Virus record (IMG/VR): IMGVR_UViG_3300025732_000291
Span: 1-22,288 of that record
DNA length: 22,288 nucleotides
Reading direction: 5' to 3' (one strand)
From: a virus
Shown: positions 3,207 to 22,288 of the stretch, in pieces
Layout: each line of letters starts with the position of its first letter
How positions within the stretch are numbered: the stretch's first letter is position 1
Made by a program: the position numbers and the translations under genes
Notes under the pieces: model-generated
What the model was told of the DNA's origin: nothing
What the model saw: the letters and a program-made list of their open reading frames with translations, nothing else
Databases searched by the model: none

Positions 3207-3662
3207 ATGGCAGCAACTTATGGAATAGATTATCCGTTTAGAAATAGTAAGAAGGGTGATTTTTTAAGAATGACAGAAACACCCGAAAAAGAAGTTAGAG
3301 CGGATCTTATTCATCTTTTATTGACTAGAAAAGGAAGTAGATATTATCTACCCGATTTTGGTACAAGGTTATATGAATTTATTTTTGAACAGAATGATAC
3401 TATAACCCATCAATTAATGGAAGATGAAATAAGAAATTCAATAAAAAAATATATCCCAAACTTAGATATAAATTCAATAACGATTAAATCACTTGAATTA
3501 GAACAAGATACAAGAGAACATGTCGTTGGAGAAGATAATGATGAGAGATTATATCGTTTAACTTCTACCGCAGCAAAACCATATACTGCGAGAGTTACGA
3601 TTGATTATACAGTAAATAACGGAACATTTTCAACATCTGATTTTGTTATAATTAATATATAA
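3207..3662 (+). CDS. gp25: gp25-like baseplate wedge protein
   Basis: This 151-residue product has the hallmarks of the GPW/gp25 family, a small wedge component found in contractile phage tails, type VI secretion and related injection systems. It opens with YGIDYPFRNS. Residues 38-52, LLTRKGSRYYLPDFG, match the family core (L-T-x-x-G-x-R-x-x-P-x-F-G). An IFEQND segment and then a helical region (EIRNSIKKYIP) follow. The family protein usually runs to 110-150 residues, so the length fits. It acts in the baseplate, where it binds the gp6-like wedge protein and anchors the first sheath ring. That partner is encoded immediately downstream: its ATG begins 1 base after this stop codon, so the two are almost certainly co-translated. 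A string of Lys residues near the start and a Glu/Asp-rich loop near residue 110 are not family features. Confidence 0.9.
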   Translation: MAATYGIDYPFRNSKKGDFLRMTETPEKEVRADLIHLLLTRKGSRYYLPDFGTRLYEFIFEQNDTITHQLMEDEIRNSIKKYIPNLDINSITIKSLELEQDTREHVVGEDNDERLYRLTSTAAKPYTARVTIDYTVNNGTFSTSDFVIINI

Positions 3663-3663
3663 A

Positions 3664-5496
3664 ATGGCTAAAAAACTATCATACGCAACTCGAGATTTTG
3701 CAGGTTTACGTGAGGAGTTAGTCAATATGACTAAAGAATATTATCCGGACCTAATAAAGAATTTTAATGACGCGTCAATATATTCTGTTTTACTTGATTT
3801 AAACGCCGCTATAGGTGATAATTTACATTACCATATTGATAGAGTTTGGCAAGAAACTATGTTGGATTATGCTCAACAAAGACAATCATTGTTTTTTATT
3901 GCAAAAACTTATGGTATGAGATTACCAGGAAACAGACCTTCAGTTTCTTTATGTGATTTTTCTATAAATGTACCTGTAAGGGGTGATAAAGAAGATGAAA
4001 GATATGAGGGTATTATAAAAATTGGTGCACAAATTTCTGGTGGGGGTCAAATTTTTGAAACAATTAATGACATTGATTTTTCCTCCCCATTCAATGATAG
4101 AGGTGAACCAAACAGATTAAAAATACCAAATTTCGATGGTAATAATCAATTAATATCATATACAATAACAAAGAGAGAACCTGTTGTAAATGGTGTTACT
4201 AGAATTTACAGAAGAGTGATAACAGAAATTGATCAAAAACCATTTTTAAAATTATATTTACCTGAACAAAATGTTTTAGGTGTAACCGCTGTGATTCACA
4301 AAGAAGGTACAGGTTTTGGGTCAAATCCAACAAACGCTGAATTTGAAAATACTACAAATAAATGGTATGAAGTAAAATCATTAATACAAGATAAAGTTTT
4401 TATTCCCGACCCTACAAGTGTTTCAGACAGAGATAATTTTAGAGCCGGTAATTATATTCCTGTTGACAAAAAATTTGTCACTGAATTTACACCAGAAGGA
4501 TATTTTTCTTTGACTTTTGGATCTGGAAATGTTGATCCTATGGAAAATTTAGATCAATATATGACAGGTAGTTTAAGGGTAAATTTATCGACTTATTTAA
4601 ATAACATATCGTTAGGTATGATACCAAAAGTCGGAACAACATTATTTGTTAAATATAGAATTGGAGGAGGAAGAGATTCGAATTTAGGTGTAAATGTTAT
4701 TACAAGTATTGATGATGTAGAATTTAATGTTAATGGTCCAAATTCATTAATTAACACACAGGTAATAAATTCTTTAAGAGTTACTAATGTCACACCAGCA
4801 ATAGGTGGGGCGAATCAACCAACCGTAGATGAGATAAGAAATATGGTGGCATATAATTTTGCTGCCCAAAATAGGGCAGTTACATTAAATGACTACAAAT
4901 CAATGATTGAAACTATGCCATCTATTTATGGTGCACCTGCGAAAGTGAATGTGATGGAAGAGGATAATAAGGTTAGAATTAAATTATTATCATATGATGA
5001 CCAAGGTAATTTAACCGATATCGTTTCAGAAACACTTAAAAATAACATTTTAAATTACTTATCCGAATATAGAATGTTAAATGATTATTTGGATATTGTT
5101 AGTGGTGAGGTTATCGATTTAGGATTTGAAATTGATTTGATTATTGATAAGAATGGTGATCAAACTGACATTATATCAAATACAATTAATAACGTTATTT
5201 CATATTGTAATATAGATAAGAGAAAAATGGGTGATCCATTATTTTTGGGAGATTTGTTCAAAGAAATAGGAAACGAATCGGGAGTTATAAATGTTGTTGA
5301 GATCAGAGTTTATAGTTTAACTGGTGGACAATATTCACTATCTGAACCATCTCAAGCGTATAAAGATCCTGCAACTAAGGAAATATTACAATCTGATATG
5401 ACGGTCTTTATGAAACCAAACCAAATATTCCAAATTAGATTTCCAAATAGAGATATTAAGGTAAGAACAAAAACTCTCACAACGACTACATATTAA
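3664..5496 (+). CDS. gp6: gp6-like / baseplate J-like wedge protein
   Basis: The 610-residue product fits the gp6/baseplate-J family, the structural core of the baseplate wedge ring. The N-terminal region (FAGLREELVNMTKEYYPDL, then a run with IGDNLHYHIDRVWQE) resembles gp6 proteins of large myoviruses. From residue ~378 it carries the classic J signature: an IGGANQPTVDEIR segment followed by AAQNRAVTLNDYKSM. The C-terminal part alternates beta strands and helices (DIVSGEVIDLGFEIDL; GDPLFLGDLFKEIG), typical of the wedge dimerisation region. Its length is close to T4 gp6 (about 660). In the assembled tail it should bind the gp25-like protein encoded just upstream and form the dome or ring around the tail hub. 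A 56-base AT-rich gap follows, so the next gene begins a new translational block. Confidence 0.88.
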   Translation: MAKKLSYATRDFAGLREELVNMTKEYYPDLIKNFNDASIYSVLLDLNAAIGDNLHYHIDRVWQETMLDYAQQRQSLFFIAKTYGMRLPGNRPSVSLCDFSINVPVRGDKEDERYEGIIKIGAQISGGGQIFETINDIDFSSPFNDRGEPNRLKIPNFDGNNQLISYTITKREPVVNGVTRIYRRVITEIDQKPFLKLYLPEQNVLGVTAVIHKEGTGFGSNPTNAEFENTTNKWYEVKSLIQDKVFIPDPTSVSDRDNFRAGNYIPVDKKFVTEFTPEGYFSLTFGSGNVDPMENLDQYMTGSLRVNLSTYLNNISLGMIPKVGTTLFVKYRIGGGRDSNLGVNVITSIDDVEFNVNGPNSLINTQVINSLRVTNVTPAIGGANQPTVDEIRNMVAYNFAAQNRAVTLNDYKSMIETMPSIYGAPAKVNVMEEDNKVRIKLLSYDDQGNLTDIVSETLKNNILNYLSEYRMLNDYLDIVSGEVIDLGFEIDLIIDKNGDQTDIISNTINNVISYCNIDKRKMGDPLFLGDLFKEIGNESGVINVVEIRVYSLTGGQYSLSEPSQAYKDPATKEILQSDMTVFMKPNQIFQIRFPNRDIKVRTKTLTTTTY

Positions 5497-12135: not shown

Positions 12136-13047
12136 ATGAATAAAACGAAATATCAAATTTTGAGAACACAAACTGGAATAACCTACGCGGTTCCAGTTTT
12201 TTTAGAAACATCCGTCGATGAACTTGGTGTTATGGTTGGTTTTGATGGTGATATATCTCAAGTTTTTGAATTTTGTAATTTCACATATACACAGACAGGG
12301 AATACCGTACAATTATATAATAGTGTAAATATTGAGGGATTTAAACAAAATGTTAGGGCGGTATTCACAATTGAGTGGGGCGATGGTACAACAAGTGATT
12401 TCCCAATTCACACTGGCAATACATTATCAACAATACAAAAAACATATACCACAAATGGTAATTATACCATAACGATATCATTATTGTCACCTTGGACAGT
12501 TGAAGTTTTATCAAAAATAGTAACAATACCTAGATTTACATCTATACCTAATGATGTTGGTAATTTCAATGGGTTTACCATACCATATACCAATTTAATA
12601 GGATCTATAGATTATTTAAATAATTTGGATTATACTAACAATACAGGATATACAAATTTCACATATGCCGCAATTGGAGGAAGTAGAATCATAGAAAAAA
12701 AATTATATGGGGTAAATCAGTATAGTGGAGTTACTGTTGTTACCACATTAAATAATATATATTCAGGTTACACAATCGATGGTATCGAATATAGAGATTA
12801 TTCTGATGGTTATACTATGATAATTGGGACAACGTCGGGATATACTAAGGAAGAAGTTTTTAATAATTTAATAACCAGAAATGAACATTTTATTGGTTTT
12901 ATTGATGAGCCAACCATATATTCAGACATTTTTGTTGAGAGAGGTAAATTATCAGTTATGGAAAATAATTTTAGATTAAACGAAATAGACAATATAGGAG
13001 AATTAAGTATATATGGAAATGGATTTTATAAGATTCAAAATCAATAA
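12136..13047 (+). CDS. virion protein with a PKD-like domain, 303 residues
   Basis: The ATG follows the preceding stop directly (TAAATG). Residues ~65-118 contain a PKD-type signature: FTIEWGDGTTSDFP, with Trp81-Gly-Asp-Gly in the usual place, then KTYTTNGNYTITISL, the closing strand of that fold. PKD domains are Ig-like beta sandwiches used as spacers or protein-binding modules, often on extracellular proteins. The rest is beta-rich with many Tyr, Asn and Thr residues. The C-terminal 50 residues (FIGFIDEPTIYSDIFVERG, then NEIDNIGELSIYGNGFYKI) look like a well-defined separate unit, perhaps the part that docks to the baseplate. I do not know the full-length family. A 39-base AT-rich gap follows, marking the end of this translational block. 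Confidence 0.7.
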   Translation: MNKTKYQILRTQTGITYAVPVFLETSVDELGVMVGFDGDISQVFEFCNFTYTQTGNTVQLYNSVNIEGFKQNVRAVFTIEWGDGTTSDFPIHTGNTLSTIQKTYTTNGNYTITISLLSPWTVEVLSKIVTIPRFTSIPNDVGNFNGFTIPYTNLIGSIDYLNNLDYTNNTGYTNFTYAAIGGSRIIEKKLYGVNQYSGVTVVTTLNNIYSGYTIDGIEYRDYSDGYTMIIGTTSGYTKEEVFNNLITRNEHFIGFIDEPTIYSDIFVERGKLSVMENNFRLNEIDNIGELSIYGNGFYKIQNQ

Positions 13048-13052
13048 AATTA

Positions 13053-13060
13053 TATTTATA
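13053..13060 (+). promoter_or_regulatory. TATTTATA motif in the gap before the 306-residue protein gene
   Basis: Third gap copy of TATTTATA, 26 bases before ATG 13087. It overlaps a 10-base direct repeat TTTATAAGAT (13025-13034 and 13055-13064) spaced 30 bases apart. Role uncertain. Confidence 0.2.
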
Positions 13061-13086
13061 AGATATAAAAAATAAAAATATAAAAT

Positions 13087-14007
13087 ATGGCGGTAGGATC
13101 ATACGGAATAGTTAGACCATCAGATATTTCACCGGAAGACGTTGAAATTTATTATCATTATGTGGCTAGTAGAAGATTTACAGAAACAGTTACCTTAAAA
13201 AGGTTATCATCTCAAGATGTATTAACTCCTGTATTTCACAATTCGGACACAACTGACGATACTGCTGCGGTAAATAATGAAATTTTAGGTGGTTTATATA
13301 ATCTAAAATTAGATTCTTCCGATTTTTCTGAGTTAGGTATATATACTTTACATATACGACCAAGACAAATAAGAACGACAATTACAGATTGTGGAATTTT
13401 AGCTTCTTTACCTTCAGTTAGAGGGTTAGTTATAGATTTAAGTAATATAGAATCTACTGATAGAAATAAATTTACTCCACAAGGATTGGTTGGTTATAGA
13501 ATTGAATATATAAATCAAACTAATAATAGGAAAATACCTAATTTTTATAGGATAGTTACATCATCTTTTTATTGTACACCTATCGCTTCAAATCTAACTA
13601 ATACCACACAAAAGGCGATTAGATATCAGTATAGTGATCAACCTACTAATTTGATGTTTTTGACTGTAACACCGTCTTCTGCACCAACAAGTAAACCAAA
13701 CACTGTTCCATTTATTGGACAACCCTCACAAAAAATTATTATAACAAATACATTTCTTAATCCAACTACTATTGAAATTGAAATGGTAGAACACGATGCA
13801 TCTACAATAGCACACGCCTTGTATGGTAATCAAACCAAGGCAGTTGCACCAGGTATATATACAATATATGACAATAATAACAATATCTATAGACAATATA
13901 ACTTGTATGAAGTTAAAGACGAATTTAATGAAACGTTATATGAAGTTAGGGAAAGAAAAACAGATATTGACCAAACATTAAATTTTGATAACATCACTAA
14001 TATATAA
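13087..14007 (+). CDS. unrecognised virion protein, 306 residues (putative baseplate)
   Basis: The product begins MAVGSYGIVRPSDISPEDVE and then has YYHYVASRRFTETVTLKRL. I recognise no named family. Predicted structure is mostly beta, with two relatively Cys-poor domains: ~1-115 (ending YTLHIRPRQIRTT) and ~118-250, which includes a VRGLVIDLSNI strand and a PNFYRIVTSSFYC segment. The last ~55 residues (APGIYTIYDNNNNIYRQYNL, then LYEVRERKTDIDQT) may form an extended or coiled tail. The stop overlaps the ATG of the 1407-residue gene in a TAATG junction, so the two are probably made in fixed proportion and bind each other. It could be a connector between the wedge and the large 1407-residue protein, but that is inference from position only. 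Confidence 0.68.
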   Translation: MAVGSYGIVRPSDISPEDVEIYYHYVASRRFTETVTLKRLSSQDVLTPVFHNSDTTDDTAAVNNEILGGLYNLKLDSSDFSELGIYTLHIRPRQIRTTITDCGILASLPSVRGLVIDLSNIESTDRNKFTPQGLVGYRIEYINQTNNRKIPNFYRIVTSSFYCTPIASNLTNTTQKAIRYQYSDQPTNLMFLTVTPSSAPTSKPNTVPFIGQPSQKIIITNTFLNPTTIEIEMVEHDASTIAHALYGNQTKAVAPGIYTIYDNNNNIYRQYNLYEVKDEFNETLYEVRERKTDIDQTLNFDNITNI

Positions 14008-17000
14008 TGGCTAGATATATTGTACCAAGTAAGGCTGCAAGTGGTAAAGACACATTTAGTGATAATTTAGTTGGTAATCAAATTACCAATGGGACTAATG
14101 AATTAACTAATACAAATTTTGAACTTGATAGGGTTATACCTGAAAAAGACGTAAAGAATTTTAAAACAATACCTTTTTCTGAATTTTTAACTTTAGATAC
14201 CATAAGTAAAGAAAAAGATGTTGTTACCACACAATCATCTTATGAATTAGAAAAAGAAATAAAATTTAATAGTGATAAAAATGATACAGGTAAATCCTTA
14301 TTTGGATCTTTATCAAGTAGAATATTAGTTTCATTAAAAAGAATTATTACAAAGTTTCCTGCTGGTTTTCTTATTGAGAAAGAAAATTATGTCAACACAA
14401 ACCCTAATACCGCTTTTAATATATCTTATGACCAAATTACTAATATAACCGATTTTACTTCTGAAGTTTCAAGGATTTTTAATCCTTTGGATGTTAAATT
14501 GATCAGACCAAAAAGTCAAGTTTTACCTGAATCTGAAAACCCAATAAAAGACTTCTATTCATCATATACAAAATATGCAATAGAAATCAGTGGTACAACA
14601 TACGGAATTTTACAATATACAGAACCAAATAATTTTAATCAAGTTTCATTTAAAGTAGGTGGTAATCCATTTAGTGGTTTAACATCTTATTCTGAAAATA
14701 TATTAGTAAGACCAAATAATTCTGTTGTTGAAACATTTTTTGGTGGACTAGATGAAATTGAAAAACAACTACTTGATAGAGAAACAGTACCAATTTATAA
14801 CGCTAGTTTTTATGTTCCAAGAGATAGTTTTGATCAGACAACAAATAATATAATTAAAGTATATTATAATTGGCCGGTATCAAAAGACGGATGGAATATT
14901 CAAGTAACAGGTTCAAAGTATGATTTTTACGTTCAGAATTTAAGTAACATCGCAGATGAGATTGATGATTGGAAATCAAATTTAATTGTTAGATTTTTAA
15001 CTGCACCACAATTATATGAATTTGATACTGATGATAAAAAGGCTGAATCTCTTTTTCAATTATATGGACAAAGTTTTGATAAAGTAAAAAAATATATTGA
15101 TAACATAGCTTATATGAGAAATGTAAGTTATGATTCAATTAATAATTTACCTGATATTTTATTAAAAAATTTAGCAGAAAACTTAGGTTTTTCCACACTT
15201 AAACTATATGATGAAAAAAGTTTAAATGATATTTTATATACAAGACATAATACCAGATATGGTGATACGTCTATTGGAAAAAATATAATTGAGGCTGAGT
15301 ATGAATTCTACAGAAGGTTATTAGTAAACTTGGCCTTTTTATATAAATCAAAAGGTACAAGATCTTCTATAATATTTTTCCTTAAATTTTTAGGAGCGCC
15401 CGAACCATTAATAAGAGTTGATGAACATATATATCGAGTAACGTCATTTCCAAGATCAAATGATTTAGAGACTGATATATTTCAAGCAATACGTGGTAGT
15501 AAAATACTAAGGAGTGCTGTATATGATCCGATTATAAGCGGATATACTATCGTTGAAACCACAGGGTCGACAACTTATACAAGAAGTGGTTATCCAGTAA
15601 AAGAAAACACTAACTTACCAAGAAGAGCATTTGATTCGGTAAGTGATATGTTTTTTGAGAAAGGTGCTGGTTGGTATCAATTAACTGCCGATCATAGATC
15701 AAGAGATATTTTAGATTTAGATAGATCAATATTAACAGGACGAACTAAAGTAATTAAAACAAAAAATAAACAATTTACATATGGTGAAGAATATTTTGAT
15801 GTATTTAGAACATTACCTGGTTTGGATACTGGATTTGGTTTACAAAGTGAAATAGATAATATAAAAGGAACATTTGTTAGTGATGAATCACCATATATTT
15901 TAAATAGAAAAAATATAAGTGTTTACTTATCGGCAAGTAGGGCTATTGACTATGACATTTGGAAAAAATCAAGAGACTTATTATTGGTTTTTGGAACAAA
16001 TACTTTGTATCCTCAAACAGGAACAACATTTGCACAATACCTATCAAATGTAATTCATAGTCAAATAAGAAATTCTCACTTTATTAGATATAAAAAGAAT
16101 TATATCTCTCTTGAAGATGTATATTCTTCTTATATTTCTAATAGTGGTTATACGGCATACAATTTTATTGATTCTCACGAATTCATAAAAAAGATGAGTC
16201 CTTATTGGACCCAAGTAATTGATCAAATAGTTCCTGCAACAACACAATGGACTGGTGGAAATTTAATTGATAATAGTTTATGGCGTAGATCAAAATATCA
16301 ATACAAAATTGGTTGTATCCCTAAAAAAATTACTGAGGAACTTTTTCCCGATTTTGAAGAAACACTTGCCGAAGATTTTGAAACAATGCTCGGAGATCAT
16401 TCTCATTTAAGAGGATTGTTGGCTGTAAGTGGTATCACATATTATCCTGTTATAGAGATTGATGGTGTGGCATATTCTGGTGCGGAATATAAAGTAGAAA
16501 TTTCGGGTACAACAAATACAACAACATCGGCAAAATTATTTGATATTTTCCCACAATCAGGTTGTACCTCAATACCAGAAAATAATGATGATTACTTACC
16601 ATTAATTTGTGATTATAAGTTATATTTAAATCCTGATTTAACAAAAATAAATGAATTATGGGTTGATGCCGTTATTGGTATTATAGATAATTTAATTAAC
16701 GTACCTAATAAATTAATTGATTATACTTTTTCAACAGATAGTAATGGTAATCCAATTTTAAATATCAACGCCATTAAATACAGTGCCAATGACTGTTCTG
16801 TAAATAGATACATTGATTATAGATTTGATACTGAATACAGACCAATTAAATCAGGTTGTACCGAAACAGATGTTTTTACGTATTGTGATGTGTATGCAAA
16901 TGGAACACAAAATTGTAATTTGGTTTCAGATGTATATATTGAACTAAGTGGTATAACGGGTGTTCAAAATGGAGGTACAGGTTGGCCTGTTTATGTATAT

Positions 17001-18230
17001 TCAGATTGTGATCAATCTCAATTAAATCAAAACATAACTTTAAGTTCTGGCAGAACAATAGCATTTATTGATGAACCGATATGTAAATTATTTATATCTA
17101 ATGTAAAAGAAAATGATGATATAAATTTAAACATAATAGATGCCGCAAACTGTGAAAATGTAATCCATATTAAAGGATTATATCCCGCTTGTATTAACAA
17201 TAATACAACAACGGGTTATACAATAGAACCTTTAGTTGAATACACAAACACATATAACTATGGATTAAAAGGAGATACTATCGTATGGGTATTCACAGAA
17301 TTCGTAAATCAAACGGCACTAACAAATAGTAATAATTTAACAGGATATATTAATAGCGGTAAAATAATTAAAAAACAAGTAAAAGATTTAGTATCAGGTG
17401 ATTTCTTATTAACAAGTGTATATCTACCACCAAGTGGATTTACTAATGGTAATATTCAAAGCGCATTAACATCAGGATTTAAATTTAGTTTTAATTACGT
17501 AACTTCTACAGTTTCAGACATTAAATGTTTAGGTTCGGTTAAAAAACATAGGATTACCGGTGAAACACAAAATGGTGATATAACTGTATTTGAAGTTTTA
17601 CCTACAACACAATTACGAGTTTATACAAATAAAAGAATAACATCAGGGGTAACTCAAGGTTTTATAATATCTTCTTATTATAATGTTATTACAAGTGGAA
17701 TTAGTACAACAAATGTTAGTGTTACTTGTAAACCTGGTCAGATAACACAAGTACCATATTATTTTACTGATAGATATCCTGAAGAATTACAAGTAAGAAC
17801 AGACGCCATACCTAATCCTTGTTGTTCGTATAAAATTGGTGCTACAGACAATAGTGGCGATTACTTAATTAATGTTGATGGAGAACCGATAGAAGTATTG
17901 GCAGTAGATTTAAATTATTGTGAATCAAATTTATTTTATAATATAAGTTTAAGTGGACTTTCATCTCCATATCCATTTGATCTAAAAACATTTGATGGTA
18001 ATAATGATTACCAAATAATGTTAAAACATTTGTATGAACATCATACAAATTCATTTGGATTTGACTTACAAACATTCTATACAGACATTAATTGTCCTAC
18101 ACCACCTACAGTAAATCAAATTAAACGACCAACCTATCTAACAGATTGTAATAATACACCAATAGATTGTTGTGATATTATACAACCAGTGATGATTGGT
18201 GATATATCATACGTAGGTCCGGGACCTTAA
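14007..18230 (+). CDS. giant baseplate protein with tail-protein-I-like domain and Cys-rich C-terminal half
   Basis: The 1407-residue product starts at a TAATG overlap. Residues ~318-470 resemble the tail protein I / P2 gpI family: an LPDILLKNLAENLGF segment and then FYRRLLVNLAFLYKSKGTRS at ~434-453, followed by FFLKFLGAPEPLI. In phages this family links the baseplate wedge to tail fibres. Residues ~725-755 (MSPYWTQVIDQIVPATTQWT) close the first half. Residues 1-769 contain no Cys, whereas residues 770-1407 contain about 20, including paired CC at NPCCSY and DCCDII. The C-terminal half is beta-rich with SGT/SGYT-type turns. I infer an N-terminal baseplate-anchoring half joined to a C-terminal host-facing half that is held by disulfides or metal. 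The product is several times longer than P2 gpI. The adhesin gene follows after 47 bases. Confidence 0.78.
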   Translation: MARYIVPSKAASGKDTFSDNLVGNQITNGTNELTNTNFELDRVIPEKDVKNFKTIPFSEFLTLDTISKEKDVVTTQSSYELEKEIKFNSDKNDTGKSLFGSLSSRILVSLKRIITKFPAGFLIEKENYVNTNPNTAFNISYDQITNITDFTSEVSRIFNPLDVKLIRPKSQVLPESENPIKDFYSSYTKYAIEISGTTYGILQYTEPNNFNQVSFKVGGNPFSGLTSYSENILVRPNNSVVETFFGGLDEIEKQLLDRETVPIYNASFYVPRDSFDQTTNNIIKVYYNWPVSKDGWNIQVTGSKYDFYVQNLSNIADEIDDWKSNLIVRFLTAPQLYEFDTDDKKAESLFQLYGQSFDKVKKYIDNIAYMRNVSYDSINNLPDILLKNLAENLGFSTLKLYDEKSLNDILYTRHNTRYGDTSIGKNIIEAEYEFYRRLLVNLAFLYKSKGTRSSIIFFLKFLGAPEPLIRVDEHIYRVTSFPRSNDLETDIFQAIRGSKILRSAVYDPIISGYTIVETTGSTTYTRSGYPVKENTNLPRRAFDSVSDMFFEKGAGWYQLTADHRSRDILDLDRSILTGRTKVIKTKNKQFTYGEEYFDVFRTLPGLDTGFGLQSEIDNIKGTFVSDESPYILNRKNISVYLSASRAIDYDIWKKSRDLLLVFGTNTLYPQTGTTFAQYLSNVIHSQIRNSHFIRYKKNYISLEDVYSSYISNSGYTAYNFIDSHEFIKKMSPYWTQVIDQIVPATTQWTGGNLIDNSLWRRSKYQYKIGCIPKKITEELFPDFEETLAEDFETMLGDHSHLRGLLAVSGITYYPVIEIDGVAYSGAEYKVEISGTTNTTTSAKLFDIFPQSGCTSIPENNDDYLPLICDYKLYLNPDLTKINELWVDAVIGIIDNLINVPNKLIDYTFSTDSNGNPILNINAIKYSANDCSVNRYIDYRFDTEYRPIKSGCTETDVFTYCDVYANGTQNCNLVSDVYIELSGITGVQNGGTGWPVYVYSDCDQSQLNQNITLSSGRTIAFIDEPICKLFISNVKENDDINLNIIDAANCENVIHIKGLYPACINNNTTTGYTIEPLVEYTNTYNYGLKGDTIVWVFTEFVNQTALTNSNNLTGYINSGKIIKKQVKDLVSGDFLLTSVYLPPSGFTNGNIQSALTSGFKFSFNYVTSTVSDIKCLGSVKKHRITGETQNGDITVFEVLPTTQLRVYTNKRITSGVTQGFIISSYYNVITSGISTTNVSVTCKPGQITQVPYYFTDRYPEELQVRTDAIPNPCCSYKIGATDNSGDYLINVDGEPIEVLAVDLNYCESNLFYNISLSGLSSPYPFDLKTFDGNNDYQIMLKHLYEHHTNSFGFDLQTFYTDINCPTPPTVNQIKRPTYLTDCNNTPIDCCDIIQPVMIGDISYVGPGP

Positions 18231-18277: not shown

Positions 18278-21200
18278 ATGTCACAAATAATTAATATAAG
18301 ATTAACAGCGATTGGTGGGACCACAGGTCCATTTGACATTTATACTGATTTAGATCTTGTTAACCCTATATATACCGGAATAACTAAAACCGATTTATTA
18401 TCAGGAATCACAATTACTGTTCCAGATGGTATAACATATGTAAAAATAGTTTCAACTGGAATATGTGGTACGGAATTAATACTAAATTTATTAACACCAA
18501 CACCAAGTCCGTCCCCAACAAACACTCCAACTTTAACACCAACACCGACATCGTCTCCAACCCCGACACCCACACCTTCACCAACTTCGACTTCTACACC
18601 CACACCTTCACCATCAAGAACGCAAGTTCCTACGGCAACATTGAGACCAACTCAAACACCAACTGTAACACCTACACCATCACCAACTATCTTAAATACA
18701 CCAACTGTAACACCAACACCAAGCCCAACTCAATTTCAGATTTCAACACCAACACCAACTCCAACATCTGCAGTTGTTAGTACATCAACACCAACACCAA
18801 GCCCAACTCAACTTCAGATTTTAACACCAACACCTACACCAACTTTTACCTCACCAATTATTGCAACATCGACACCAACACCTACACCATCACCTACACA
18901 ATTAAATGCAATAACTTTAACACCAACACCAACTATAAGTTTATCTCAACCAACACCAACGATTACACCGACATCGACAAGATTTCCTTTAACACCGACA
19001 CCAACACCTACTTCAACACCGGCACCAACAGGACCTACACCAACACTAACTAATCCACCTTTACCAACTTGTGCACCTCTTTATAATACTTTTAATGGAG
19101 ATATATATTTTTATGATGTTCTAAATAAAATATCAACACTTTTAGTTTATTCACCTAAAATCGAATCCCACGATATTGCACATACATCTAATAAACTTTG
19201 GATATACGATGATTTTAGTTTATATGAATACGATTTAGTAACATCAATATTTAATGCCACATTAAATAGAGTAATTTCGTTACCGTTAGGATTTTTACCA
19301 TCAAAAGGGTTATTCGCTATAGATAATAATACTTTAATTATGGGTGATCAACTTGATGACCCAACTAAAATAGTTGAAGTAAATGTATCCACAAATACAC
19401 CAACTGTAACTTTTAAATTTAATTTACCCACAGGTAGAATAGTTAATGGTGATTTTTTACTAACAACTAACAATAAATTCATTATATCAACCCAAGACTT
19501 AGATAATGGTGCATTTATATCTCAATATGATTATACAACGGGTACACTAGAATATGATTTAAATGTAACAAATCAGATACCGTATCCTTGGGGTATGTTC
19601 ATTTATAATTCAATATTATATATTTCAACAGGAAATTTAGGTGACATATATCAAATGGACTTAAATTCTCCATTTAATATAACGTATTATGACAGAACTA
19701 ATAGAGGATGGTTTGGGGCTTCTCAAACAAGAAATTGTTTAAACAGAGGATTAGAAGAAACTCCAACTCCAACACCCACACAAACTCCAACTCCAACACC
19801 TTCTTCAACACCAGTACCAACACCAAGTCCGACATTAACACCTTTACCAACACCAACAAGTTTTATTGAAAATTGTGATCCATTATATAATACAACATCA
19901 GGTAACGTTTATATTTATAATGTTGCCGGAAAGTATTCAACTTTAGTTAATGTTCCACAAGTTATAAATTCATATGATATTGCACATACTAGAAATAAAC
20001 TATGGGTTTATGATACAAGTAATTTTATTGAATACAATATAACATTAAATCCTTGGACTGCATCAATAAATAGGATATTTCCTTGGCCGAATAATTTTGT
20101 ACCTGCTAAAGGTTTAAAAGCTATATCAGACACTATTTTAATTGTTGGTGAAAAATCTACTAATCCAATTAAGATATATGAATTAAATGTATTTAATGTA
20201 CCTATAAACGTATTCCCTAAATTTGATTTAATTGTTAATAGGGAAATTTATGGTGATTTTACTTTAACAACAAGTAGAAAATTTATAGTATTAACAAAAG
20301 AAACAGTAGCACCTTTTAGATCGTTTATTTCTCAATACGATTATAATTTATCAAATAATAATTTAGAATGGGATGTTGATATTACATCATCTATACCCAA
20401 TCCATCCGCATTATTTATTGACAACAATAAAATTTTTGTTGTTAACAATACTGGTTCTATAGCTGACATATATAATTTGGGCAGTATGGCACCACCATTT
20501 AATATAACATTCTATGATAATGAATACAGAGAATGGCAAGGAGGATCTCAATTATTAGACTGCGCACTTATACCAACACCAACACCAACTGTTACACCGA
20601 CAGTAGTTGGACAATCACCAACTCCAACACCTACCCCAACTTTATTTGCTTCGCCAACACCAACACCAACTGTTACACCAACTTGTATCATTAATACTAC
20701 TTTATATGATTGTGTAAATTGTACTCCTGTTGGTTTACCTTATTTAACAGGTACTACAATCGGATTTATAAATGGTGTACGAATTATTACTGGTTTTACT
20801 GAAACAACTTATAATAATTTAACAATAACATCAACATATGTTGGTCCGGAAATTAATAGTCAAAATTCAACATATGAACTGGCGGGATCAATAAATTGCA
20901 CAGGTAAGGCATTACCAAATAAGTATATTTGGTTAGGTTATTTTTCAGGTGGTTTTGATTATACAATAACATTTAATAAACAATTAAACAACGTAAAATT
21001 TTTAACCTTTGGTGGTGGTAAACAAGGAGAACCATATTTTGAGAATTATAAATTCAATACGAATTCGGGAGTACCTACATTAAATTTTTGTGGTGATAAT
21101 TGTGGATCGGTGATTGTAAATAACGATTACTACACTGAATATGCACCTATTTCAGGTGGAGGGGCTTTGATACAAGTAACATCGGTATCATCATATAGTG

Positions 21201-22288
21201 CAATAACAATTAGTGGTGACGGAAATTATGCTCAACCAGTTGGTACTTTAGATGGGACAATATTTGCATTATGTATTGATGATATAGATTGTTATCCAGC
21301 GCCAGATTCTCCTTGTTTATCTGATTGTATTTCAACTGAAGGTACACCAACGTTCAGTGGTTTGCCATTAAATAATCAATCATTACAATACAATAATTTT
21401 ACAATTACAGGGCAATCAAGTGGGGACGTTAGTAGTTTTTATTTCACAACATTAAACAACCAACATTATTATTTTTGCAGTACAACTGAAAATATTATAA
21501 TTCCAAATGACATAACAACAATTGTTGTTGGATCGGTTGGACCTGTTAGTGGATCACCATTTACATATAAAATGATTTTTGATCGGCCCGTAAACAATAT
21601 TGGTTTATACTTTTTAGGAATGGGTGCCATCAATGAAAATTATGGTATTGAAGAGGAGATAAATGTACAAGTAAATCAAGGATGTATATCATTAACATTA
21701 GATGAAAGATCTTGTAATATAAGAATAAGTGGAGATACAATTTATGGAAAAGCATTACAATTTTTTAATACTTCATTTTCAATAGGCGATGGTTTAATTT
21801 CAGTAAATTCAACACTTGATTATACTGAAATAACATTAACAGGACCAGGAGGTCTTTATGGAACAATTATTGGTATATGTGATAATTTATGTAATCCTCC
21901 AGTTACCTCTCCTTGTTTTTCAACTTGTGAATCGTTTAGTGGTTTACCTCAACCAAATCTTTGGACATATTATAAAAACTTTTATGCTCAGGGAAATGCA
22001 AGTGGTGATTGGGGATATACCACGACTAGTTCACAATATCTATGTAATAATCCGCAATCTTACCTTATACCTGGAGGTGTAACAACAATAATACTTGGTG
22101 AAAATAATTTACCATTTACATATGAAATAATATTTGATAGACCGGTAAATAATGTAATGTTGTATCTTTTAGATATGGGGACAAGTGTGAACCCATATAT
22201 AAATGTTGAAGAAGTTTTATCAATAACAACAAATTCAGGTATTGTTACTTTAGAATTAGATGATAAATCTTGTAACACAAGAATAATG
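18278..22288 (+). CDS. giant modular Pro/Thr-rich adhesin or tail-fibre protein; 3' partial
   Basis: The frame runs from ATG 18278 to the last base without a stop, giving 1337 codons of a longer gene. Residues 1-72 form a small beta domain (MSQIINIRLTAIGG to the CGTELILNL region), probably the attachment unit. Residues 73-264 are a Pro/Thr/Ser stalk. Residues 265-494 and 528-765 are two homologous domains with repeated motifs such as DIAHTxNKLW, an FISQYDY strand and FNITxYD, which I read as beta-propeller-like. Pro/Thr linkers at 495-527 and 766-802 separate them. From Cys803 come three related Cys-containing domains (803-1010, 1011-1210, 1211 onward). There is no signal peptide, so it is most likely a virion protein rather than a secreted one. 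Its place after the tail-protein-I-like gene suits a receptor-binding fibre. The Thr-rich linkers could be glycosylated, which is inference. Confidence 0.85.
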   Translation, partial: MSQIINIRLTAIGGTTGPFDIYTDLDLVNPIYTGITKTDLLSGITITVPDGITYVKIVSTGICGTELILNLLTPTPSPSPTNTPTLTPTPTSSPTPTPTPSPTSTSTPTPSPSRTQVPTATLRPTQTPTVTPTPSPTILNTPTVTPTPSPTQFQISTPTPTPTSAVVSTSTPTPSPTQLQILTPTPTPTFTSPIIATSTPTPTPSPTQLNAITLTPTPTISLSQPTPTITPTSTRFPLTPTPTPTSTPAPTGPTPTLTNPPLPTCAPLYNTFNGDIYFYDVLNKISTLLVYSPKIESHDIAHTSNKLWIYDDFSLYEYDLVTSIFNATLNRVISLPLGFLPSKGLFAIDNNTLIMGDQLDDPTKIVEVNVSTNTPTVTFKFNLPTGRIVNGDFLLTTNNKFIISTQDLDNGAFISQYDYTTGTLEYDLNVTNQIPYPWGMFIYNSILYISTGNLGDIYQMDLNSPFNITYYDRTNRGWFGASQTRNCLNRGLEETPTPTPTQTPTPTPSSTPVPTPSPTLTPLPTPTSFIENCDPLYNTTSGNVYIYNVAGKYSTLVNVPQVINSYDIAHTRNKLWVYDTSNFIEYNITLNPWTASINRIFPWPNNFVPAKGLKAISDTILIVGEKSTNPIKIYELNVFNVPINVFPKFDLIVNREIYGDFTLTTSRKFIVLTKETVAPFRSFISQYDYNLSNNNLEWDVDITSSIPNPSALFIDNNKIFVVNNTGSIADIYNLGSMAPPFNITFYDNEYREWQGGSQLLDCALIPTPTPTVTPTVVGQSPTPTPTPTLFASPTPTPTVTPTCIINTTLYDCVNCTPVGLPYLTGTTIGFINGVRIITGFTETTYNNLTITSTYVGPEINSQNSTYELAGSINCTGKALPNKYIWLGYFSGGFDYTITFNKQLNNVKFLTFGGGKQGEPYFENYKFNTNSGVPTLNFCGDNCGSVIVNNDYYTEYAPISGGGALIQVTSVSSYSAITISGDGNYAQPVGTLDGTIFALCIDDIDCYPAPDSPCLSDCISTEGTPTFSGLPLNNQSLQYNNFTITGQSSGDVSSFYFTTLNNQHYYFCSTTENIIIPNDITTIVVGSVGPVSGSPFTYKMIFDRPVNNIGLYFLGMGAINENYGIEEEINVQVNQGCISLTLDERSCNIRISGDTIYGKALQFFNTSFSIGDGLISVNSTLDYTEITLTGPGGLYGTIIGICDNLCNPPVTSPCFSTCESFSGLPQPNLWTYYKNFYAQGNASGDWGYTTTSSQYLCNNPQSYLIPGGVTTIILGENNLPFTYEIIFDRPVNNVMLYLLDMGTSVNPYINVEEVLSITTNSGIVTLELDDKSCNTRIM
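18494..19069 (+). repeat. Pro/Thr stalk 1 (192 codons)
   Basis: A run of ACA/ACT/ACC and CCA/CCT/CCG codons encodes (TP)n with Ser interruptions, residues 73-264. A 48-base segment at 18709-18756 recurs at 18787-18834 with two mismatches, an in-frame offset of 78 bases. A shorter ACTGTAACACC segment recurs at an offset of 42 bases. Confidence 0.9.
19070..19759 (+). repeat. propeller-like domain copy A of the adhesin
   Basis: Residues 265-494 start CAPLYNT and include DIAHTSNKLWIYDD, KGLFAIDNNTLIMG, FISQYDYTTG and NITYYDRTNRGW. The pattern of short strands closed by Asp/Tyr suggests blades of a beta propeller. Copy B matches it at a constant in-frame offset of 804 bases, measured at the GATATTGCACATAC segment (19172 and 19976). 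Confidence 0.8.
19760..19858 (+). repeat. Pro/Thr linker 2 (33 codons)
   Basis: Codons 495-527 encode a TPTPTPTQ-type linker between propeller-like copies A and B. Confidence 0.85.
19859..20572 (+). repeat. propeller-like domain copy B of the adhesin
   Basis: Residues 528-765 begin with a CDPLYNT block and repeat the motifs of copy A in the same order (DIAHTRNKLWVYD, KGLKAISDTILIVG, FISQYDYNLS, NITFYDNEYREW). The DNA has diverged far more than the motif order, so the duplication is not recent. Confidence 0.8.
20573..20683 (+). repeat. Pro/Thr linker 3 with internal duplication (37 codons)
   Basis: Codons 766-802. A perfect 26-base repeat (PTPTPTVTP) begins at 20573 and again at 20654, an in-frame offset of 81 bases, flanking a VVGQSPTPTPTPTLFAS core. 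Confidence 0.85.
20684..21307 (+). repeat. C-terminal beta domain copy 1
   Basis: Residues 803-1010 contain a Cys-x2-Cys near the start (DCVNC), the FNKQLNNV motif at ~899-906 and a GTIFALCIDD end. This is the most divergent of three related domains, with the longest spacing. Confidence 0.65.
21308..21907 (+). repeat. C-terminal beta domain copy 2
   Basis: Residues 1011-1210 begin SPCLSDC and contain a FSGLP turn, YKMIFDRPVNNIGLYFLGMG with Asp1102, LDERSCNIRI and a GTIIGICDNLC end. The unit is exactly 200 codons to the matching SPC of copy 3. Confidence 0.8.
21908..22288 (+). repeat. C-terminal beta domain copy 3, cut by window end
   Basis: Residues 1211-1337 begin SPCFSTC with a FSGLP turn and contain YEIIFDRPVNNVMLYLLDMG with Asp1287 and LDDKSCNTRI. 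The domain must continue beyond the window. Confidence 0.8.

Follow-up and report, generated by a model that had tools for sequence, protein, structure and literature searches.

Architecture of the ORF

The window, meaning the whole stretch of 22,288 bases that was analysed, is an entire IMG/VR virus record. ORF 18278-22288 on the + strand starts with an ATG at 18278 and is open to the last base of the window, giving 1337 codons; its 3' end is cut by the end of the contig and lies outside the record. Pro/Thr-rich (PT) runs were found at residues ~73-264, 494-527, and 766-803. Residues 263-487 are paralogous to residues 530-763 (44% identity, E 5e-48), and the C-terminal beta domains, all three of which contain Cys, are related to one another as well (1 versus 2, E 3e-13; 2 versus 3, E 9e-30). 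An earlier note on this DNA had described a bead-on-string layout in which three Pro/Thr tracts space duplicated domains, two of them propeller-like and three of beta type. Translation and self-comparison confirmed the layout, the mutual similarities bore out the three beta domains, the third of them incomplete, and the two propellers were confirmed by the structure model and PDB matches described below. The features of the ORF and of the genes upstream are listed in Table 1.

Table 1. Features of ORF 18278 and of the tail cluster in the window
Feature	Positions	Strand	Evidence or remarks
gp25-like baseplate wedge protein	3207..3662	+	PHROG 261, E 4.5e-16
gp6-like baseplate wedge protein	3664..5496	+	PHROG 219 and 6, E 1e-18 and 1e-16
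306-aa conserved structural gene, upstream of gX	13087..14007	+	relative encoded in 325 viral_contigs stretches
gX	14007..18230	+	conserved ~940-residue N part, variable C part; homologs in >100 loci
N-terminal ~72-residue beta-type domain, proposed dock	18278..18493	+	member of the 49-sequence N-domain family
Pro/Thr tract 1, 192 residues	18494..19069	+	composition, translation
Beta-propeller domain 1	19064..19738	+	AlphaFold2 pLDDT 93.8; Z up to 15.8 against solved propellers; homologs in 25 viral loci
Pro/Thr tract 2, about 33-34 residues	19757..19858	+	composition, translation
Beta-propeller domain 2	19865..20566	+	44% identity to domain 1
Pro/Thr tract 3, about 37-38 residues	20573..20686	+	composition, translation
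Beta domain 1, Cys-rich	20687..21343	+	similar to beta domains 2 and 3; homologs found with a profile of all three
Beta domain 2	21344..21943	+	related to beta domains 1 and 3; homologs found with the profile
Beta domain 3, incomplete at contig end	21944..22288	+	42% identity to beta domain 2

Genomic setting

ORF 18278 is located directly downstream of gX, and the baseplate wedge genes are upstream on the same strand in one cluster. In relatives, the gene order was the 306-aa gene, gX, a variable array of genes for PT proteins, and then a ~700-residue gene whose protein starts with MSFLN. ORFs with PT tracts were directly upstream of the MSFLN gene in 18 of the 22 MSFLN lineages. The C part of gX also ended in PT tracts and heads in many relatives, in some of them a propeller. 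Contigs of this clade reach 310-335 kb, and the members are therefore large phages. The gp25-like and gp6-like genes upstream, together with the conserved frame in relatives, make the assignment to a phage firm, which agrees with the view in the earlier note that this is a phage and not a host protein.

The structure model of gX was of low confidence and gave no usable structural match. Tail_P2_I scored weakly (E 0.07) in 1 of 14 gX homologs and was absent from the window's own gX. Neither the MSFLN nor the gX profile matched the PDB, and against PHROG the two profiles gave nothing except one weak match of gX to a hyaluronidase family. When the proteins of ORF 18278, gX, the 306-aa gene, and the MSFLN gene, as well as the propeller of ORF 18278, were used as tblastn queries against 50,697 phage records, there was no match and thus no isolate of the clade; the gp6 protein alone finds distant isolates in those records, at 27-29% identity. 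Immutovirus and Mel-JY01 share the baseplate gene order, with no PT array in the stretches read. The 306-aa alignment had no match in genome_contigs and hence provided no link to a host.

Several other features of these loci were observed. At 891-1724 and 1786-2607 of the window are two similar lipoprotein-like ORFs in tandem, with the motif HExxHxxGLxHQ and scores to the M12/M10/M57 metallopeptidase families; these are unusual cargo immediately before baseplate genes. By eye, a 5'-open ORF at 2-817 resembles a cysteine-peptidase-like domain (GGTTCGASSLYMNYNYLKNNG); it had no Pfam match. A 30-nt AT-rich unit is present twice at 13025-13082, across the end of the ORF at 12136 and the gap before 13087. 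In one relative (L113, 6057-9101) gX is found as two ORFs, possibly because of a frameshift, an intron, or an assembly error.

The array of PT proteins

The array in relatives contained one to six genes per phage, most of them encoding an N-domain of 55-100 residues, a PT tract, and one or more heads. ORF 18278 fits this plan, having an N-domain of the same family followed by a Pro/Thr tract. Its N-domain belongs to the main family (49 sequences), with the best relatives in L100, L096, and L076. Matches to this family were N-terminal in 56 of 61 cases, although 30 of the 56 had themselves entered the alignment, which makes this count partly true by construction; for a second N-domain type the figure was 11 of 11. 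Profile comparison did not connect the two types. A strict slot order of N-domain subtypes was considered and dropped because exceptions occur, although many contigs conform to it. In G007 (C1:51558-51728) and G010 (C1:181835-182005), a second type-II N-domain, 53% identical, lies within a frame of 308 codons remote from the array.

Composition and length of the Pro/Thr tracts

Pro and Thr make up 30% and 35% of the 264 tract residues of ORF 18278; the corresponding values for the remaining ORFs of the window are 4.5% and 8.3%. The G+C content of tract 1 is 44%, versus 30% for the genome, and all four Pro codons and all four Thr codons are used in the tracts. A composition so far from that of the other ORFs, encoded with every Pro and Thr codon, rules out chance as well as a simple DNA repeat, although TRF detected tandem units of 12-78 nt within the tracts. 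The earlier note had regarded Pro/Thr linkers as unusual in phage fibres, and for phages at large this was not supported: a (TP)x6 DNA pattern was found in at least 120 IMG/VR stretches, with an ORF reading Thr-Pro in 64 of the 80 examined. Thr-Pro runs are common in uncultured phages, and PT tracts are no rarity among phage proteins.

Tract length in relatives ranged from about 20 residues to ~4,750. In one relative the array slot is occupied by a frame exceeding 5,350 codons, at 2950-19002 of L134 (G001, a 288-kb contig), with a Thr-Pro tract at residues 62-4818. Three further contigs have the same frame with 5,472 codons and another has it with 4,267, so the tract length of about 4,757 residues depends on the assembly; 11 contigs from different samples were identical across the first 5.7 kb. 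Two phages with 99.9% nucleotide identity outside the tract (over most of gX) differed by 147 nt (49 codons) in the PT tract of gX, and tract length therefore changes fast and in frame. The rise of a polyproline II helix is 0.31 nm per residue. If extended in this form, 192 residues could span ~60 nm, and 4,757 residues ~1.5 micrometres.

The tracts might instead be expanded repeat DNA that is tolerated as linkers and provides recombination sites for head swapping, with no selected function as a tether. The tandem units, the length difference between near-identical phages, and the recurrence of the same heads in shuffled order are consistent with this. However, Thr and Pro are kept in one frame with mixed synonymous codons, and several assemblies show the tracts open across ~14 kb. 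Both features suggest that selection acts on the protein. The tracts also occupy the same slot in 18 of the 22 lineages. Repeat expansion without a selected tether is an improbable explanation.

It was also considered whether the tracts coat or decorate the virion as mucin-like, glycosylated chains, involved for example in shielding or in attachment to extracellular matrix rather than in receptor binding. The very high Thr/Pro content would suit such a coat, as would the GT2-family glycosyltransferases encoded by five of the five large relatives examined, but GT2 genes serve other uses in many large phages. Furthermore, the heads are diverse and modular, as binding devices would be, and prolyl hydroxylase-type genes were present in only two of the five relatives. 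A mucin-like coat is considered very improbable. Glycosylation of the tethers by the phage GT2 enzymes is possible. Glycosylation by the host is unlikely because there is no export signal and the protein is presumably made in the cytoplasm. A link between prolyl hydroxylases and the Pro-rich tracts was dropped, as PF13640 was found in only G004 and G005 among the five large relatives. A prolyl 4-hydroxylase is annotated in Microcystis phage Mel-JY01 (L132, 3084-3683).

Propellers and other heads

An AlphaFold2 model of the propeller, built from an alignment of 17 homologs, had a pLDDT of 93.8, a pTM of 0.90, and 21 strands, and the strand count suggests about five blades. By Foldseek and a second structural alignment, the best PDB matches included E. 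coli YjiK (Z 15.8) and the LRP6 YWTD propeller (Z 15.2). A closed multi-blade beta fold is supported by Z scores of 13-15.8 across 182-214 residues against solved propellers. In a viral structure library the best match was A0A7S9SU35 of the uncultured Virus NIOZ-UU157 (TM 0.83 on query, 23% identity, E 6e-15). Similarity of the predicted propeller fold shows no function.

Homologs of the propeller were found in 25 viral loci, in one to three copies and in 25 of 25 cases in ORFs with PT tracts; these required an alignment scan, since propeller 1 as a single sequence gave no match. The propeller was fused within gX in L006-L010 and L018. With a profile of the three beta domains run on fetched loci, homologs were found adjoining propellers in L144, L145, L151, L152, L163, and L164, in differing order, while a scan of the collection with the beta-domain alignment found no locus. 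The presence of the propeller in gX as well, and the varied order in which the beta domain accompanies it, show that heads pass from one slot to another within a single apparatus.

SprB repeats and cadherin domains, which are adhesin modules and hallmarks of Bacteroidota surface adhesins, were detected in 7 of the 49 scanned array proteins of relatives, far above chance (best E 3e-40 and 4e-26). One of the seven is shown explicitly (L096:2705-6730), and the other six carriers are probably L105:2027, L108:2350, L118:1744, L109:1049, L113:540, and L115:1554. SprB repeats had no Pfam match in ORF 18278 and were found only in the relatives' proteins.

The modules typical of Bacteroidota surface proteins in relatives, and the lipoprotein-like metallopeptidases encoded by the first genes of the window, could point to a protein that is encoded by the phage and displayed on the infected host or secreted, rather than being part of the virion. 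Against this, no signal peptide or lipobox is visible at the N-terminus of ORF 18278 or of the listed array proteins, the gene is placed between the baseplate genes and a conserved gene, and the same heads are fused to gX. Display on the host or secretion is considered extremely improbable.

Phage receptor-binding fibres are usually trimers, and ORF 18278 could be an ordinary trimeric tail fibre with trimeric heads, in which the Pro/Thr tracts act as hinges and the chains are joined through the N-domain or a C-terminal tip past the contig end. The gene sits at the usual tail-fibre position, Immutovirus, a distant relative, has tail fiber and tail spike annotations following its baseplate genes, and the part of the ORF beyond the contig may hold a trimerisation tip or chaperone. 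However, the propeller was modelled confidently as a single-chain fold, and a trimeric rod is difficult to envisage for the ~4,750-residue tract of a relative. In addition, no known trimerisation, collar, or S74 chaperone domain was found by Pfam in the 3'-truncated ORF 18278 or in 49 related array proteins. An ordinary trimeric fibre is judged unlikely.

Proposed role

The reading considered moderately probable is that ORF 18278 encodes one of a set of baseplate-docked, PT-tethered, multivalent adhesive tail proteins of a large contractile-tailed phage, probably one infecting Bacteroidota. The earlier note's proposal of an adhesive role, with Pro/Thr tethers and several heads, is very probably correct given the tail/baseplate cluster, the array plan, and the SprB/cadherin heads in relatives. 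Three indirect lines of evidence suggest that the host is probably a member of the Bacteroidota: the SprB repeats in relatives, the genes at 891 and 1786 with signals in the style of lipoproteins, and the distant similarity of gp6 to Flavobacterium phages.

The location of the ORF 18278 protein in the virion and its binding are predicted from sequence. Docking to the virion, most likely to its baseplate beside gX, would be the task of the N-domain, and the Pro/Thr tract, judging from its composition, would be an extended, disordered, polyproline-II-like flexible tether. At the far end of the tether, the propellers and beta domains may serve as exchangeable heads whose binding to glycans or proteins of the host surface would be reversible and multivalent, which would keep the virion near the cell until an irreversible receptor is found. 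In relatives, tether length and the set of heads are seen to change quickly, through in-frame loss or gain and through module exchange.

More tentatively, and less probably than not, these proteins may represent a distinct class of tail appendage in large Bacteroidota phages. Such appendages would consist of Thr-Pro tethers in arrays, non-trimeric and unstructured, with lengths from 20 to more than 4,700 residues (contour up to ~1.5 micrometres if extended) with a shared N-terminal dock family, glycosylation by phage enzymes, and swappable heads, some of them made of host gliding-adhesin repeats. The array, the module exchange, and the extreme tract lengths are what is notable, rather than Thr-Pro runs as such. 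No description of Pro/Thr arrays, module exchange, or extreme lengths in phages was found in the open-access literature searched, an absence that is a weak sign of novelty.

The usual picture of phage adsorption is one of stiff trimeric fibres. If the proposed role is correct, the use of several long flexible tethers with swappable heads by a widespread uncultured clade would change the range over which a virion searches for its host and the pace of host-range evolution. Repetitive Pro/Thr genes in metagenomes are easily missed or fragmented by assembly, and the conserved frame of the cluster is a handle for finding such adhesins.

Comparison with known systems

Trimeric fibres and spikes (of the T4 gp12/gp34-37 type, and those of Immutovirus) resemble ORF 18278 in their place after the gp25/gp6 wedge genes and in the presumed role in adsorption. 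ORF 18278 differs in having long Pro/Thr tethers and single-chain propeller heads, and in the lack of a detected trimerisation or chaperone domain of known type. Bacterial Pro/Thr-linked surface and cellulosome proteins also consist of folded domains spaced by Pro/Thr linkers, but cohesin, dockerin, and anchor domains had no Pfam match in ORF 18278, which also lacks a detected signal peptide. The uncharacterised A0A7S9SU35 of Virus NIOZ-UU157, deposited without a function, shares the propeller as the best viral structural match and is likened to ORF 18278 by this domain alone. SprB and other Bacteroidota gliding and surface adhesins are linked to this system by the SprB repeats and cadherin domains of related array proteins. 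In contrast to SprB-type adhesins, ORF 18278 itself carries neither module, lacks an export signal, and belongs to a phage tail cluster.
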